Position numbers and translations under genes: made by a program. 41,245 bases of DNA from a virus, in the IMG/VR virus record IMGVR_UViG_3300022745_000072, positions 1 through 41,245 of that record, one strand, 5' to 3'. Below are positions 2,985 to 41,245 of this stretch, piece by piece (position 1 is the stretch's first letter; every line of letters begins with the position of its first letter). Below the pieces are notes generated by a model that saw only the letters and a program-made list of their open reading frames with translations, was not told where the DNA came from and ran no database searches.

Positions 2985-3394
2985 GTCACTTGCACCAATT
3001 CGAATTGCAACCCATACGCGGCATAGTCTCCGCTTCGAAACTTGATTTGACCATGGAAACTATTCAACCCGAATCTCACGGTGTAGGCCGTTTGTGCCGC
3101 GTTCGGCGTGGCCTCGAGAAACGACATTTCAGTGTCGGCCTTGTAGAGTGCGAGCAGGTCAAGATAACCCATGCCGCTATCGCGTTGGGTGCGCTGGTTG
3201 GCCGTAATCCATGTGTACGAGAACAGCCAATGCGCCACTTTCAAAATCTTGTAGCGCTTCAGGTTGCCCGCCGCCATGCGTTGGTCTTTCGCCACATCTT
3301 CATAATTGACGGTCAGGTTGGCATCGTTGTACGAGATCATGCTTTCTGATCCCAGCGTGCCGAGCGCGAATTGATAACGGTCAAAAGTTGCCAT
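2981..3394 (-). CDS. Distal-tail-like protein (137 aa)
   Basis: The protein is 137 residues and lies between tape measure and tail hub, the slot normally held by the distal tail (Dit) or a minor tail protein. Its stop overlaps the hub start (ATGA), and its start touches the tape-measure stop at 3394. Motifs such as FHGQIKFRSGDYAAYGLQFELVQ near the C-terminus look like a beta-barrel tail protein. It is shorter than most Dit proteins, so only the core barrel could be present. Confidence 0.65.
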   Translation of the reverse strand: MATFDRYQFALGTLGSESMISYNDANLTVNYEDVAKDQRMAAGNLKRYKILKVAHWLFSYTWITANQRTQRDSGMGYLDLLALYKADTEMSFLEATPNAAQTAYTVRFGLNSFHGQIKFRSGDYAAYGLQFELVQVT

Positions 3395-9103: not shown

Positions 9104-9499
9104 TTACGCCAATGTGAAGTTGACGTTGGTCATCACGTCCCATTGCCCGTTACGAGCAACCAGCGTGATCGAGTTGTTGGCGGCTGCCGATGCCGTCGCG
9201 GTTCCGCTTGAACCTTTGCGGTTGAAGCCTTGCGGGCAGGTGATGGCATGGGCGAATGCGGTTTCGGAAAAGACCATGATGATCTTTCCATCGTCGCCTG
9301 TACCGTACGCACCTGCGACCGGAGCCGCAAGCGTCAAAGCTGCTGCTGAACCCTTGGTGATCACAACGGTTTTGACCACACCTACGCTCGATGGCAAGGT
9401 GATGACCCCGTCTGCCGAAAGCAATTGGAGCGCATCAGCACTGCTGACGATGGCTCCGCTTGCCACTAGATTTGTTACGTTCGAGTCGCCTGCTGGCAT
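9104..9499 (-). CDS. Head-region beta-module protein, paralogue of the fibre-like gene at 39556
   Basis: The protein is 131 residues. From about residue 30 to the end it is highly similar to the C-terminal part of the protein at 39556-40029. Both contain VFSETAFAH, GFNRKGSSGTATASAAANN, LVARNGQW, and end in FTLA. The shared part looks like a trimeric fibre or decoration module with small-residue strands. GGAAGG is placed about 8 bases before the ATG. The upstream flank is the inserted HNH segment. Confidence 0.7.
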   Translation of the reverse strand: MPAGDSNVTNLVASGAIVSSADALQLLSADGVITLPSSVGVVKTVVITKGSAAALTLAAPVAGAYGTGDDGKIIMVFSETAFAHAITCPQGFNRKGSSGTATASAAANNSITLVARNGQWDVMTNVNFTLA

Positions 9500-9513: not shown

Positions 9514-9533
9514 ACCCTGAGACAGGGTATAAT
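9514..9533 (+). promoter_or_regulatory. Candidate promoter of the HNH gene with overlapping inverted repeat
   Basis: A consensus -10 box TATAAT lies at 9528-9533. No good -35 is visible (TTAGCC at 9504-9509 with an 18-base spacer is weak). A perfect 6-bp inverted repeat, ACCCTG-aga-CAGGGT at 9514-9528, runs into the -10 and could be an operator. Transcription would begin near 9540, at the foot of the structured leader. Confidence 0.4.
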
Positions 9534-9537
9534 ATGC

Positions 9538-9615
9538 GTGTGGACTAGAACGGCCTCATGAACCGTTTGAACGGCTAACTCTGTGAGCTTGTCCACACTC
9601 CCAAACACAGAGTTA
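9538..9615 (+). promoter_or_regulatory. Pseudoknot-capable 5' leader of the HNH gene
   Basis: Two perfect pairings interlock. GTGTGGAC (9538-9545) pairs with GTCCACAC (9591-9598). TAACTCTGTG (9576-9585), which lies inside that loop, pairs with CACAGAGTTA (9606-9615) outside it. This is the topology of an H-type pseudoknot. A small hairpin CCGT-TTGA-ACGG lies in between, and a second AACGG copy (9549-9553) offers an alternative partner for CCGTT (9563-9567). The last helix ends just before the GGAG ribosome-binding site (9619-9622) of the ATG at 9633. A translation-controlling RNA is inferred. Confidence 0.5.
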
Positions 9616-9632
9616 CACGGAGACAACTTCAT

Positions 9633-10295
9633 ATGACAGACATTCAGGTAAAGCGCTGCAAGATTTGCGGCGAAATAAAACCTATTTCCGAATTCTACAA
9701 AAAGCGTGATTGTGCCCTTGGTGTTACTCCGGAGTGTAAGATCTGCCGTTGCTTGAAAGACGGATTTACCCCGCGCACATTCCGCGAGAAACTTCCCGAA
9801 GGCCTGAAGCGGTGCAAGCATTGCCAACGCGTTCTTCCTGAGACCCCTGAATATTTCTCCCGAAATGCACATTGCCATAACGGCCTTTTCGCGATTTGCA
9901 AAGAGTGCCGCGCTAACAAACGAAATGCTGAATACCAGAAGTCTCCCGAAATGCGCGTGCAAACCATTCAACGCAGTAAGGACTGGCGTAAACGCAACCC
10001 CGACAAACGTCAAGCGCAAGTCTGGATTCAGAACCGCCGCAGACGAGCAAGACGGGCGCAATCCACAGGCAAACATACCGCGGCAGACGTACGCAACCAA
10101 TACAACGCTCAACAAGGACGCTGCTACTGGTGCGATGTTTTGGTTGGTGATATTTACCACGTCGATCACGTTATCCCCTTATCTCGTGGCGGCTCCGATG
10201 GCCGCGAAAACATTGTTATTTCTTGCCCCTTCTGCAATGTCAGCAGAGGGGACAAGCTCCCTAGCGAATGGGGCAAAGGAGGGAAGCTTCTATAA
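9633..10295 (+). CDS. HNH homing endonuclease (free-standing)
   Basis: The protein is 220 residues and on the opposite strand to every neighbour. Residues 1-90 hold two zinc-ribbon units (CKICGEIKPISEF with CKICRC; CKHCQRVLPETPEYF with CKECRA). A basic helical linker follows. The HNH core is at about 155-210: CYWCDV, HVDHVIPLSRGGSDGRENIV, CPFCNVSRGDKLPSEW. These supply the zinc pairs and the metal-binding His and Asn positions. It sits between the capsid gene and the next head gene, so it is probably a mobile endonuclease acting on phage DNA. The start has GGAG 10 bases upstream. Confidence 0.9.
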   Translation: MTDIQVKRCKICGEIKPISEFYKKRDCALGVTPECKICRCLKDGFTPRTFREKLPEGLKRCKHCQRVLPETPEYFSRNAHCHNGLFAICKECRANKRNAEYQKSPEMRVQTIQRSKDWRKRNPDKRQAQVWIQNRRRRARRAQSTGKHTAADVRNQYNAQQGRCYWCDVLVGDIYHVDHVIPLSRGGSDGRENIVISCPFCNVSRGDKLPSEWGKGGKLL

Positions 10296-10297
10296 CC

Positions 10298-10318
10298 GTA
10301 CGCCATTAAACAGCGTAC
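10298..10318. repeat. Hairpin at the HNH/capsid gene junction
   Basis: GTACGC (10298-10303) and GCGTAC (10313-10318) form a perfect 6-bp stem with a 9-base loop. It lies between the convergent stops of the HNH gene and the capsid gene. There is no T-tract, so it is not a standard terminator. It may mark an end of the inserted HNH segment or slow transcripts from either side. Confidence 0.4.
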
Positions 10319-11223
10319 TAGTTATTTACAAATGTCCAGCGCCAGTCAGTAAAGCCGAAACCATAACGCATACGGGCGATCCAAGTGGCAAAAACGCTGG
10401 TGTCTTCCTGCTTCAGATGCACGTCGAGCGGCACGCGGTCTTGCCAGAACAGCTTCTGCTTCATGAGCACGCTGTCCACCAAGAACCAACGGGTGGTCGA
10501 GGTCAGGAACGGCCACACGATGATGTTGTACGCGCCCTGCCGTGGGTTGTCTGCACGGTTGGCAGTCGTCGGATCGCCGCTGGACAAAACTGCCTGACGG
10601 GCAGCGTATTCCAGCGCAGGTGGGACGATCAGGGTGTCGGGCATCGCGCCGATCAGACCACCCTTGTCATCCGTGTAGGCCCACATGGCCAAACGGGACG
10701 TTTCGATGTTGGCCGGAGTGAGGGTCAGCGAACCAGCGTTCGACTGGGTGCCGCTCACGTCAGGGGCGTTCGGGTGCGAGGCCGAAGCCAACGCCACGCC
10801 ATCGCCGCCCAAATAGGAAGCGCTGGTTGCGTTGTTGAACACCGAGGCCGCGTCGGTTTCCATCTTCAAAGCAGCGCTGTCACCGAGCATCATCGTCGGA
10901 TTGACGATGTTGTTGTATAGGTTGTCTTCGAGGAATTCACGACGGATCGGCAGCTCGACGGCGAACGTTTGGTTCTGGATGTTGGTCTTATACCCACGGT
11001 CATAGCCGACTGTCGAAGGCTTGCCCGTTGCGGAAAAGTTGTTCCAAGCATCCAGAGCCACCGCGCCAAAGTTTTCATAGTGTTCCGTGTCCTTGATGGA
11101 CGACAGAACGTTGAAGATGGACGGGCGCAGCGATGGACGGCGGTTAAATCCCAGCCAGAACCATTCGCGAATGCCGGGTTCGAGGGCATCAGCCCATGCT
11201 TGACTAACAAGAGGTGCAGGCAT
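10318..11223 (-). CDS. Major capsid protein (HK97 fold, Mu gpT-like)
   Basis: The protein is 301 residues and follows scaffold and decoration genes. It lacks an N-terminal protease-processed delta domain, consistent with the separate scaffold gene. Motifs resemble the Mu-type major head subunit: an N-terminal WFWLGFNRRPSLRPSIF region, FAVELPIRREFLEDNLYN, LIVPPALEYAARQ (typical P-loop/A-domain phrase), and a C-terminal VFATWIARMRYGFGF. A ribosome-binding site AAGGA precedes the ATG. Confidence 0.85.
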   Translation of the reverse strand: MPAPLVSQAWADALEPGIREWFWLGFNRRPSLRPSIFNVLSSIKDTEHYENFGAVALDAWNNFSATGKPSTVGYDRGYKTNIQNQTFAVELPIRREFLEDNLYNNIVNPTMMLGDSAALKMETDAASVFNNATSASYLGGDGVALASASHPNAPDVSGTQSNAGSLTLTPANIETSRLAMWAYTDDKGGLIGAMPDTLIVPPALEYAARQAVLSSGDPTTANRADNPRQGAYNIIVWPFLTSTTRWFLVDSVLMKQKLFWQDRVPLDVHLKQEDTSVFATWIARMRYGFGFTDWRWTFVNN

Positions 11224-20535: not shown

Positions 20536-20821
20536 GTTTCACCCCCAACGCTTCCAGCGCTTTTTTCATCCGCCACTTCTTTCGAGTAAGGTTGTATTGC
20601 TCCCGATGTGCTTGCCGCCATCGCACCGACCGCGCATAGTTTTCGGCTTTGTGCGAAAGATAATAGTTGCGGGTGTAGATTTTCTGCTTGTCCTTGGTTT
20701 TCTTGTAAACGCAGGCATAGCAGACGTTCACCCGGTACTGGCTTCCGTTGCGATATTTAGCCAGCTTGAACTTGGTTTCGGGCAGCGTCTGCTTGCATGA
20801 CTTGCAATAGTGGTCAGTCAT
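20528..20821 (-). CDS. Basic zinc-ribbon protein, copy 1 (97 aa)
   Basis: The protein contains CKSCKQTLPETKF and CYACVYKK, then a strongly basic, aromatic-rich helix region ending ALEALGVKHG. The next gene is a tandem paralogue, and both resemble the ribbon part of the HNH endonuclease at 9633. Its start overlaps the methyltransferase stop (ATGA). Likely nucleic-acid binding. Confidence 0.65.
   Translation of the reverse strand: MTDHYCKSCKQTLPETKFKLAKYRNGSQYRVNVCYACVYKKTKDKQKIYTRNYYLSHKAENYARSVRWRQAHREQYNLTRKKWRMKKALEALGVKHG
20533..20561. repeat. 29-bp imperfect direct repeat, copy 2
   Basis: This copy spans the end of the first zinc-ribbon gene and the start of the second, and matches 20241-20269 with two differences about 292 bases apart. 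It supports a tandem duplication of the zinc-ribbon unit together with its translation signal. Confidence 0.75.
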
Positions 20822-21390
20822 AGTAGCGGCTCCTGTGTGTGCTTAACTTCCTGCACCGTTTCATCGGTGAACAATGGCGGTGTCCACGGTTCCGCCAGCC
20901 GTTTCCGCGCCATTTCGACATATTCCGCGTTCACATCACAAGCGATGAAATGTCTACCTAATCGTTTCGCTGCAATTGCCGTTGTGCCGCCACCGGAAAA
21001 CGGATCTAATACAATATCTCCCGGCTTGCTGTGTAATTTGATAAAATGTTCCATCAGCGCAATCGGTTTTGGCGTAGGATGATCGGTAGCTTGCGGAATT
21101 ATCTTTCGTGCCATCGATGGACGGATGATATTTTCAATTGTGTTCGTCGTGTCATACCATTTACATGCTGCCCCCGGTTTCATTGCTACCAGCACCGTCT
21201 CATAACTGCGCCGATAATGCCAACCCATACCCATCGGGCCTTTATCCCAGACCACCATTTGCTTAAATTCCAATACCTCATCCAACCAAAGCGACCACCG
21301 CGCAAATTGTGGATCGGGGCCGCCGCCGCCGCAGCAGCAGCAGCAGCAGCAGCAGCAACCCGGTTTCAGAATGCGCTTATATTCTTTCAC
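20818..21390 (-). CDS. DNA methyltransferase, C-terminal part (beta class)
   Basis: This part starts at a GTG overlapping the stop of the upstream half (GTGA). It opens KEYKRILKPG, then nine Cys and four Gly, then PDPQFARWSLWLDE and VVWDKGPMGMGWHYRRSYE. The AdoMet-binding motif I is DPFSGGGTT near residue 140, after which come GRHFIACDVN and EYVEMARKRL. With DPPY in the upstream frame the order IV then I is that of beta-class DNA methyltransferases. It probably works with the upstream half, or the split is an error. Confidence 0.78.
   Translation of the reverse strand: MKEYKRILKPGCCCCCCCCCGGGGPDPQFARWSLWLDEVLEFKQMVVWDKGPMGMGWHYRRSYETVLVAMKPGAACKWYDTTNTIENIIRPSMARKIIPQATDHPTPKPIALMEHFIKLHSKPGDIVLDPFSGGGTTAIAAKRLGRHFIACDVNAEYVEMARKRLAEPWTPPLFTDETVQEVKHTQEPLL
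21319..21357 (-). repeat. Trinucleotide repeat encoding Cys9-Gly4
   Basis: On the coding strand TGC is repeated nine times and then GGC four times. All codons are identical within each run, which suggests replication slippage. Length changes in units of three would keep the reading frame, so on/off phase variation is not expected. I believe related methyltransferases also have a Cys/Gly run at this place, but cannot verify it here. Confidence 0.9.
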
Positions 21391-39555: not shown

Positions 39556-40029
39556 TTAGGCTAGAGTGAAGCCAGTGTTGGATTGGACGTTCCATTGTCC
39601 GTTGCGCGCCACCAAAATTAATTGGTTGTTGGCTGCAGCTGAGGCTGTGGCCGTGCCGCTCGACCCTTTGCGGTTAAAGCCAGTCGTGGCAGTGATCACG
39701 TGCGCGAACGCTGTTTCGCTGAACACAAAAATCACTTTGCCATCGTCGGTGCCTGCCGTGGGAGCGGCCAGCGTGATGGCGGCTGCCGATGCCTTGGTGA
39801 TCGTGACGCATCCGGAGAGCAAGGTGATCGCCCCGTCACCGCTCAACACCTGCTGAGTGAGGGCCACGCCCGAAGCGTTGCCCGTCACGTTGCCGACGAC
39901 GGAGCCGGTCAAAATCCCGGTGACGTTTCCGGTTACGTTGCCGACTACGTTCCCCGTGAGTGGACCCGTGATAGCGCCTGAGCTGGTCAGCGCGCTTACA
40001 ACTACGGTATCTGGAATAGTGGTGGTCAT
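39556..40029 (-). CDS. Fibre-like protein with TGNV repeats (157 aa)
   Basis: The start at 40029 (MTTTIPDTVVV) has AGGGAAAAC upstream; the longer frame is a shadow. Residues 21-54 hold repeated GNVTG/GNVVG units. The C-terminal 90 residues are closely similar to those of the head-region protein at 9104 (VFSETAFAH, GFNRKGSSGTATASAAANN, FTLA end). It lies between lysin and holin, so a tail fibre, lysin-associated or decoration role is possible. Confidence 0.7.
   Translation of the reverse strand: MTTTIPDTVVVSALTSSGAITGPLTGNVVGNVTGNVTGILTGSVVGNVTGNASGVALTQQVLSGDGAITLLSGCVTITKASAAAITLAAPTAGTDDGKVIFVFSETAFAHVITATTGFNRKGSSGTATASAAANNQLILVARNGQWNVQSNTGFTLA
39868..39969 (-). repeat. Glycine/asparagine-rich repeats (GNVTG units)
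   Basis: About six near-repeats of a five- to six-residue unit (TGPL, TGNVVGNVTGNVTGIL, TGSVVGNVTGNASG). Such repeats in tail proteins usually form a beta-helical or triple-stranded spacer. The DNA repeat makes this segment prone to length change. Confidence 0.75.
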
Positions 40030-40048
40030 GTTTTCCCTATCTTTTTCG

Positions 40049-41245
40049 CTAATACAGTGAACGAGTATCGAATTGCGCCCATTGCGGATCGTCCGTTCCA
40101 TAGGTGAACAGCGTGCCGCCTTTGAGCCTTGGTTCAAGCTGATATTGGCTATTGAGCCATGCCAATTGCCGCCGATAGAATTCGGTGGCGTTGATGCCGG
40201 ATAAGAAGCCCGCTTTCGACCACGCATCGACGCACGACAGCCAACCGCGTGTCTTTTGCCCGCCGAGGTAAAAGACGCCATTGCCCGGTTGAACGAGGTC
40301 ATCTAGCCCCGTTTCAGTGATTACCAGCTGGCAACGGTAGAAGCCAAGCGATTCAATATCGCGCAGGTCTCGCCGCCACCGCATGGCCGTCCATGCTTCC
40401 TGACTGGTGCCCGATGGATAGAGGTCGCCATGCCAAGCGCCTGCGCTGTCCACATACGAGCCGCCATAGTTATTCGACAGGATGCTTTGAGCGTAGCCAT
40501 GGATGCCGATCAGGTGATCGCCTTCTTCGCACGCTTTCAGCATATCGACTGCATTTCGCCATGTGCTGATGTCGGTGGAACCAGTCTGAATGTTCAGCAC
40601 ACAGGCACGTCGACCGATTGCGGCCATTGCTCGTGCTCTGGCAGCTTCGAATGCTAGATACTCCGAAGGTGCACCGACTTCATTATCTGATTCATGGTAA
40701 GCAAAAGGTAGCGTGGTAAAGTCGGACTGACGCTCATAAACGTATTGATTGACCGCGTTCCCCACGTTTTGCTTGGCTAGGTTCAGCCAGTAGCCATCCG
40801 GCTTGTAGCGGCGAAAGATGATCGCGGCATCGGGCAAAGCGGCATGAGTGCGCTGGGCCAATCCTACGTTATCGACGATCTTATACACTGCCGCGCCCAC
40901 GCTGATCGCTTTTTGGATGTCGGCTTCGCTGAGGCTGCCCATCATATGCAAACCTAGCTTTTGCGTAATGGTGGGTGGTACTGTGGCAGCTGCGCTCAGG
41001 TACTTTTCCACCACCCAACCTTTGATATTGTAGGCAATCTCGACGGCTGCCCAGACATAAGTGGTGCCGTTCATCGTGGCTTGTACCAATGGCGTATCGA
41101 GTACCAAGAGCTTCGATCCCGGTGCAATCACTTTCACGAATAGCCCGCCAGGTGATGAACGCAAGTTCAGTGCGCCCGTGGTATAGGCTTGCCCTATATT
41201 TACGGTACGCGGAATCAGGACAGGTACAAAACGCTGCAGCTCGGC
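40049..41245 (-). CDS. Endolysin: SH3-like domain + glycoside hydrolase, 5' end outside window
   Basis: The frame stays open to the right edge, so the N-terminus is missing and internal start calls near 41164 are not the true start. Visible order: TTGALNLRSSPGG and WVVEKYLS (SH3b-type wall-binding), then a roughly 280-residue TIM-barrel-like domain from KLGLHMMGS. Candidate catalytic acids are in YHESDNE and ITETGLDD. Followed by a fibre-like gene and the holin. Specific cleavage is unknown. Confidence 0.72.
   Translation of the reverse strand, partial: AELQRFVPVLIPRTVNIGQAYTTGALNLRSSPGGLFVKVIAPGSKLLVLDTPLVQATMNGTTYVWAAVEIAYNIKGWVVEKYLSAAATVPPTITQKLGLHMMGSLSEADIQKAISVGAAVYKIVDNVGLAQRTHAALPDAAIIFRRYKPDGYWLNLAKQNVGNAVNQYVYERQSDFTTLPFAYHESDNEVGAPSEYLAFEAARARAMAAIGRRACVLNIQTGSTDISTWRNAVDMLKACEEGDHLIGIHGYAQSILSNNYGGSYVDSAGAWHGDLYPSGTSQEAWTAMRWRRDLRDIESLGFYRCQLVITETGLDDLVQPGNGVFYLGGQKTRGWLSCVDAWSKAGFLSGINATEFYRRQLAWLNSQYQLEPRLKGGTLFTYGTDDPQWAQFDTRSLY

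Follow-up and report, generated by a model that had tools for sequence, protein, structure and literature searches.

A divergent int-alpA-type leader RNA as a putative bistable translation switch for a phage homing endonuclease

The leader of an HNH endonuclease gene within a 41,245-nt stretch of virus DNA (IMG/VR record IMGVR_UViG_3300022745_000072, positions 1-41,245; hereafter the window) is probably, at odds that we put at roughly two in three on comparative grounds, a divergent int-alpA-type RNA that operates as a promoter-driven, bistable translation switch for a phage homing endonuclease. Comparison of related leaders shows a three-way junction built from the stems P1, P2 and P3, with the loop of P3 kept complementary to two adjacent downstream sites, a decoy and the Shine-Dalgarno (SD) site of the gene.

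Layout of the leader in the window

The HNH gene is inserted between a minus-strand capsid gene (10318-11223) and a minus-strand gene (9104-9499), and is preceded by the following elements:

9528-9533, plus strand: -10 promoter box TATAAT, read directly
9538-9545, plus strand: 5' arm of P1 (nested helix 1), GTGTGGAC, perfect complement of 9591-9598, covarying in relatives
9546-9548, plus strand: junction UAG, common to int-alpA (CUAG) in alignments A4/A6 and the RF02996 consensus
9549-9567, plus strand: P2 hairpin (nested helix 2), AACGG-CCTCATGAA-CCGTT, with a near-invariant 9-nt loop C[CG]UCAUGAA and a covarying stem
9569-9571, plus strand: junction GAA, common to int-alpA (CGAA)
9573-9589, plus strand: P3 hairpin, GGCU-loop-AGCU, from the fold of the core; helix 3 of A4, conserved less well
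9591-9598, plus strand: 3' arm of P1, GTCCACAC, pairing with 9538-9545
9606-9615, plus strand: decoy, the first SD-like copy, CACAGAGTTA, pseudoknot partner of the P3 loop (duplex -13.9 kcal/mol)
9616-9622, plus strand: true SD site, the second copy, CACGGAG, forming seven pairs (one G-U) with 9579-9585 (duplex -10.4 kcal/mol)
9633-10295, plus strand: HNH endonuclease gene, 220 aa (Pfam HNH, 1.4e-8; PHROG endonuclease VII, 8e-33)

The initial annotation described the leader as an H-type pseudoknot made of two interlocked pairings, 9538-9545 with 9591-9598 and 9576-9585 (TAACTCTGTG) with 9606-9615, and both are indeed exact Watson-Crick matches. When the whole window is scanned for perfect stems that interlock within 90 nt, one of at least 8 bp and the other of at least 10 bp, this pair is the only one returned; 20 block-shuffled windows give none, or 0.05 per window if 8 bp suffices for both stems. 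The extra small hairpin that had been pointed out is present as the P2 stem (9549-9553 with 9563-9567). The pseudoknot is retained, but not as a plain H-type, since a third stem (9573-9576 with 9586-9589) turns the arrangement into a three-way junction; this P3 stem encloses a loop at 9577-9585 with an anti-SD segment at 9579-9585 inside it, and the second helix of the annotation (hereafter helix 2) is the P3 loop paired with sequence further downstream. An alternative partner had also been suggested for one arm, and it matters more than first thought because 9579-9585 pairs with the SD site at 9616-9622 as well. The promoter has a weak -35 element (TTAGCC). A transcript start expected near 9540 agrees with the earlier estimate; with the -10 box at 9528-9533, the outermost two pairs of P1 are probably untranscribed.

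Folded without pseudoknots, the region 9514-9640 is moderately more stable than its shuffles (z = -2.0), and folding of 9538-9660 yields -24.8 kcal/mol with helix 1 enforced versus -25.3 kcal/mol with helix 2 enforced. The pseudoknot is not required by thermodynamics alone, nested alternatives being equally stable, and the case for it is therefore a comparative one.

Several further observations concern the window. A palindrome, ACCCTGAGACAGGGT, lies at 9514-9528 directly 5' of the -10 box, where it adjoins the SD of the minus-strand gene 9104-9499, and a comparable palindrome occupies the same place in L001. The gene 9104-9499 and a second minus-strand gene, 39556-40302, resemble paralogues over ~90 residues (FSETAFAHxITxxxGFNRKGSSGTATASAAANN...). 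A methyltransferase-like frame on the minus strand (20818-21390) carries near its start a run of nine cysteines and four glycines (GCCCCCCCCCGGGGPD), which is either a short repeat or an assembly error. A short frame within the leader itself (ATG at 9558, six codons) was set aside, its length not being kept among the members described below. A single-protein search with the capsid gene found no relative in viral contigs, no nuclease is annotated after the head gene in one distant phage, and DNA-level BLAST of the window region and two leaders against 50,697 phage records returned nothing useful.

Relatives of the leader and the genes they precede

HNH relatives were gathered from viral contigs and the regions upstream were read. 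In the window and in L044, L050, L058, L062 and L065, all reached through HNH homology, TATAAT is followed by the same arrangement, which runs from the P1 arm (for example, TTGTGGGA) through TAG, a hairpin with the loop C[CG]TCATGAA, GAA and a hairpin holding the helix-2 arm to the P1 partner TCCCACA, the helix-2 partner and finally the SD. The box stands 3-5 nt ahead of P1 in all six fold leaders reached via the HNH protein, for which TATAAT was not a search term, and the P2 loop is present in six of seven fold leaders reached by HNH homology alone, the exception being the linking leader L011. Pattern scans with a structure filter added L121, L122, L125, L128, L139, L142, L171 and L224, together with several near-identical contigs. 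The resulting 14 distinct phage leaders share one fold, a P1-UAG-P2-GAA-P3-P1' three-way junction with pairing between the P3 loop and downstream sequence. TATAAT, in part a search criterion, occurs in 13 of the 14; L224 was found without TATAAT as a search term and has none. Other matches to the pattern TATAAT...GCSTCATGAAC (L124, L126, L130, L133, L134, L138, L140 and L225) and those in L144-L170, listed members excepted, were taken as chance because P1 and P2 are absent. A first genome scan with two HNH proteins gave no matches.

Across an alignment of nine leaders, 85.9% of cells in the nested stems are paired, versus 73.7% when shuffled, and the covariation score is 0.333, versus 0.140 for shuffled alignments (0/500 shuffles) and 0.02-0.12 for slid structures, none of which exceeds 0.115. 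Compensatory changes in homologous leaders, proposed by the initial annotation as a check on the structure, are seen as two-sided changes in 9 of the 15 nested pairs, and the pseudoknot arms are wholly different between members with complementarity still kept. Of the three stems, P3 has the weakest support. The notion of a conserved pseudoknotted leader RNA that extends to the ribosome-binding site of a homing-type HNH gene is upheld. A covariance model built from the nine leaders (R1) scores the window, a part of its own building set, at 76.9 bits (E 2e-18) and recovers L122, L139, L142 and L171, none of which was used in building. In addition, R1 matches L011, which lies before an HNH gene, and L135 (3302-3354, minus strand), which precedes a non-nuclease phage gene; both are without the special P2 loop.

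All 14 leaders precede homing-type endonuclease genes, and these are of unrelated kinds: HNH proteins of several subfamilies, a GIY-YIG protein with NUMOD3 (L122), a DUF559/MTES_1575-type protein (L142) and members of other phage or homing endonuclease families (L121, L139 and L171). The association with HNH genes made at the outset is correct but too narrow, as other nuclease kinds carry the leader too. Because nucleases of unrelated kinds share this one RNA, we regard it as a module in its own right and control by the nuclease itself as unlikely. We note that the gene behind the leader in L171 (1485-2487) is a broken HNH/NUMOD homing endonuclease gene: the reading frame from the expected ATG ends three codons later, and two partial frames come next. 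A different type of leader is found in the HNH relatives L001 (2881-2967), L046 (~600-682), L052 (~1890-1979), L063, L077, L087, L029 and L028: a TATAAT-like box of its own, then a long hairpin that is rich in GC and interrupted by an asymmetric internal loop, and lastly a small SD-enclosing hairpin immediately ahead of the ATG. Since relatives such as L001 and L052 carry it, the pseudoknot is not a trait of the whole HNH family.

One loop, two SD-like sites and the link to int-alpA

In the window leader, the P3-loop segment CTCTGTG (9579-9585) can pair with either CACAGAG (9606-9612) or CACGGAG (9616-9622). None of the three stems contains the SD, which has no strong partner other than this loop. 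The P3 loop of the phage leaders is likewise complementary to two neighbouring sites, namely the helix-2 partner and the SD, and int-alpA RNAs have the same doubling of loop-complementary sites. No fewer than ten distinct loop sequences each have two matching sites, as exemplified by CTCTCAC/GTGAGAG (L215), TCGTA/TACGA (L212) and CACCTT/AAGGTG (L122). The decoy pairing is the stronger one in 10 of 13 leaders, the window included, and the SD pairing in three members (L065, L139 and L135b); for L171 the SD pairing alone was found. As a control for a general effect of purine richness, loops were scored both against their own sites and against those of other members. Among 30 int-alpA RNAs, with boundaries cut by script, own and swapped scores are 13.98 versus 10.60 for the decoy and 14.62 versus 11.99 for the SD. 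For 13 phage leaders (including the linking leaders L011 and L135) the values are 17.65 versus 10.93 and 15.08 versus 11.04, respectively, with loop and copy boundaries set by eye after the matches were known, which favours 'own' pairs. Permutation of own and swapped sites gave 0/5000 for each site in each set, in which related sequences are not independent.

To our knowledge, int-alpA (RF02996) is a candidate motif from comparative genomics that has no established function, and in the literature searched it is named without one. It is the only credible Rfam match among the leaders at permissive thresholds, where ribozyme, riboswitch and HEARO identities were ruled out by the lack of any other match. 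The P1/P2/P3 three-way junction, UAG (9546-9548), GAA (9569-9571) and a P3 loop (9577-9585) complementary to an SD-like sequence just 3' of P1 (9606-9614) are all features that the window shares with int-alpA, while the short, variable P2 loop is replaced by one of 9 nt, CCTCATGAA. The expectation of a new regulatory RNA therefore holds in part: the architecture is that of int-alpA and not wholly new, whereas one loop with two tandem SD-like sites had gone undescribed in the initial annotation.

RF02996 gives no match to the window leader even with E relaxed to 10, let alone at its gathering score of 35.8 bits, and the connection with int-alpA is therefore made by way of linking sequences. L011 is above the cut-off at 38.0 bits, L135 reaches 35.3 bits and L224, with its CSTCATGAA loop, 19.3 bits (E 0.001); conversely, R1 matches the int-alpA RNA L202 (E 0.008), its sole match in 100 kb. 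Being below RF02996 detection, the window leader is termed a divergent int-alpA-like RNA, not a formal member. Within one proteobacterial class, 28 of 229 genomes contain an RF02996 match above cut-off; in a second class the figure is 3 of 190. In the phage contig L135, the HNH leader is accompanied by an int-alpA-type RNA (3220-3354, minus strand) that lies ahead of a small non-nuclease gene (MASSLIQTNQEAIRRLREL...), and both branches thus occur in one phage. In another phage contig with an HNH gene (L227; G454:C1:480-557), int-alpA is matched below threshold (22.1 bits, E 2e-4).

A proposed switch, its alternatives and known systems

We suggest that the decoy and SD pairings of the P3 loop are mutually exclusive. 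With the loop on the decoy (9606-9615), a compact pseudoknot would form, leaving the SD free and translation on; with the pseudoknot lost, the loop would take the SD (9616-9622) and turn translation off. As the decoy is transcribed first and usually offers the better pairing, the RNA would by default form the pseudoknot and leave the SD accessible. The switch is likely to be set at the invariant P2 loop and the UAG and GAA junctions, with a ligand, a host or phage protein, or the ribosome as candidate triggers. For a homing endonuclease such a switch would hold a toxic activity down or control when it appears, much like the simple SD hairpins of T4-type phages (PMC3014915). Counting against this reading, the P3 stem of the window has 4 pairs only, and full pairing of its 9-nt loop is impossible without strain.

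A leader that simply hides the SD within a pseudoknot or hairpin, and thereby lowers or delays translation in a single state, would leave the decoy without a switching role. The T4-type I-TevI, mobE and segB leaders act in this manner (PMC3014915), the P3 loop of L171 pairs with the SD directly, and a local hairpin surrounds the SD in L044, L121 and L122. However, the complementarity between decoy and loop is kept as strictly as that of the SD, and the decoy is usually the stronger partner, neither of which a plain block needs, and we consider this explanation unlikely.

A three-way junction with a pseudoknot between a loop and downstream sequence is a known shape for exonuclease-resistant RNAs. 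In the phage leaders, the first base of P1 coincides with the expected transcript start or lies just upstream of it, as would suit a structure that shields or shapes the 5' end, either as an exonuclease barrier or as an RNA polymerase-bound antitermination RNA, with the SD matches secondary. Such a role is improbable, as it leaves two covarying SD-like sites unexplained and as int-alpA RNAs in bacterial genomes mostly have no TATAAT at the corresponding place, so that P1 is not generally at the 5' end. That the inverted repeats act in the DNA, as operators, element ends or nuclease targets, rather than as RNA structure is more improbable still. In its favour, two P1 pairs may precede the transcript start and the separate palindrome at 9514-9528 overlaps the -10 box; against it, complementarity, the order of elements and the match of loop to SD all survive a complete change of arm sequence from member to member, and unrelated nucleases share the structure.

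The bistable switch is the reading that we favour. More tentatively, and with rather less confidence than for the window leader, int-alpA and the phage-nuclease branch may constitute one class of bistable, possibly signal-sensing switches, in which an anti-SD loop chooses between decoy and SD, and which serves as a module, sometimes with its promoter, common to unrelated phage homing endonucleases. For int-alpA, catalogued without a function, the doubled SD-like match in dozens of sequences would provide a concrete and testable mechanism. The occurrence of the divergent branch before several unrelated homing endonucleases indicates that the RNA behaves as a module, one suited to selfish genes for DNA-cutting enzymes, since these genes have to keep their toxicity in check, and the leader would represent a compact natural two-state translation element.

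The phage leaders and int-alpA share the plan P1-CUAG-P2-CGAA-P3-CUG/CUU-P1', after which the int-alpA consensus continues with AAGGG, as well as an SD-like segment after P1' that is complementary to the P3 loop, with the true SD as a second copy. They differ in that P2 of the phage leaders has an invariant 9-nt loop, C[CG]UCAUGAA, in place of the short, variable loop of int-alpA; in addition, the phage leaders have a shorter P3, TATAAT directly upstream and homing-type endonuclease genes downstream, and most of them, like the window, fall below RF02996 detection. SD-sequestering leader hairpins limit translation of the T4-type phage homing endonucleases I-TevI, Aeh1 mobE and segB (PMC3014915), to which the window leader can be likened from its sequence as a structure at the ribosome-binding site that may limit translation of such an enzyme. 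Theirs are simple hairpins over the SD, whereas the window has no hairpin directly enclosing the SD but a three-way junction, a pseudoknot and a choice between decoy and SD. A leader pseudoknot also regulates translation of T4/T2 gene 32 (PMC3014915), where the H-type pseudoknot nucleates binding of the gene's own product; with unrelated products behind one leader, autoregulation of this kind is unlikely here.
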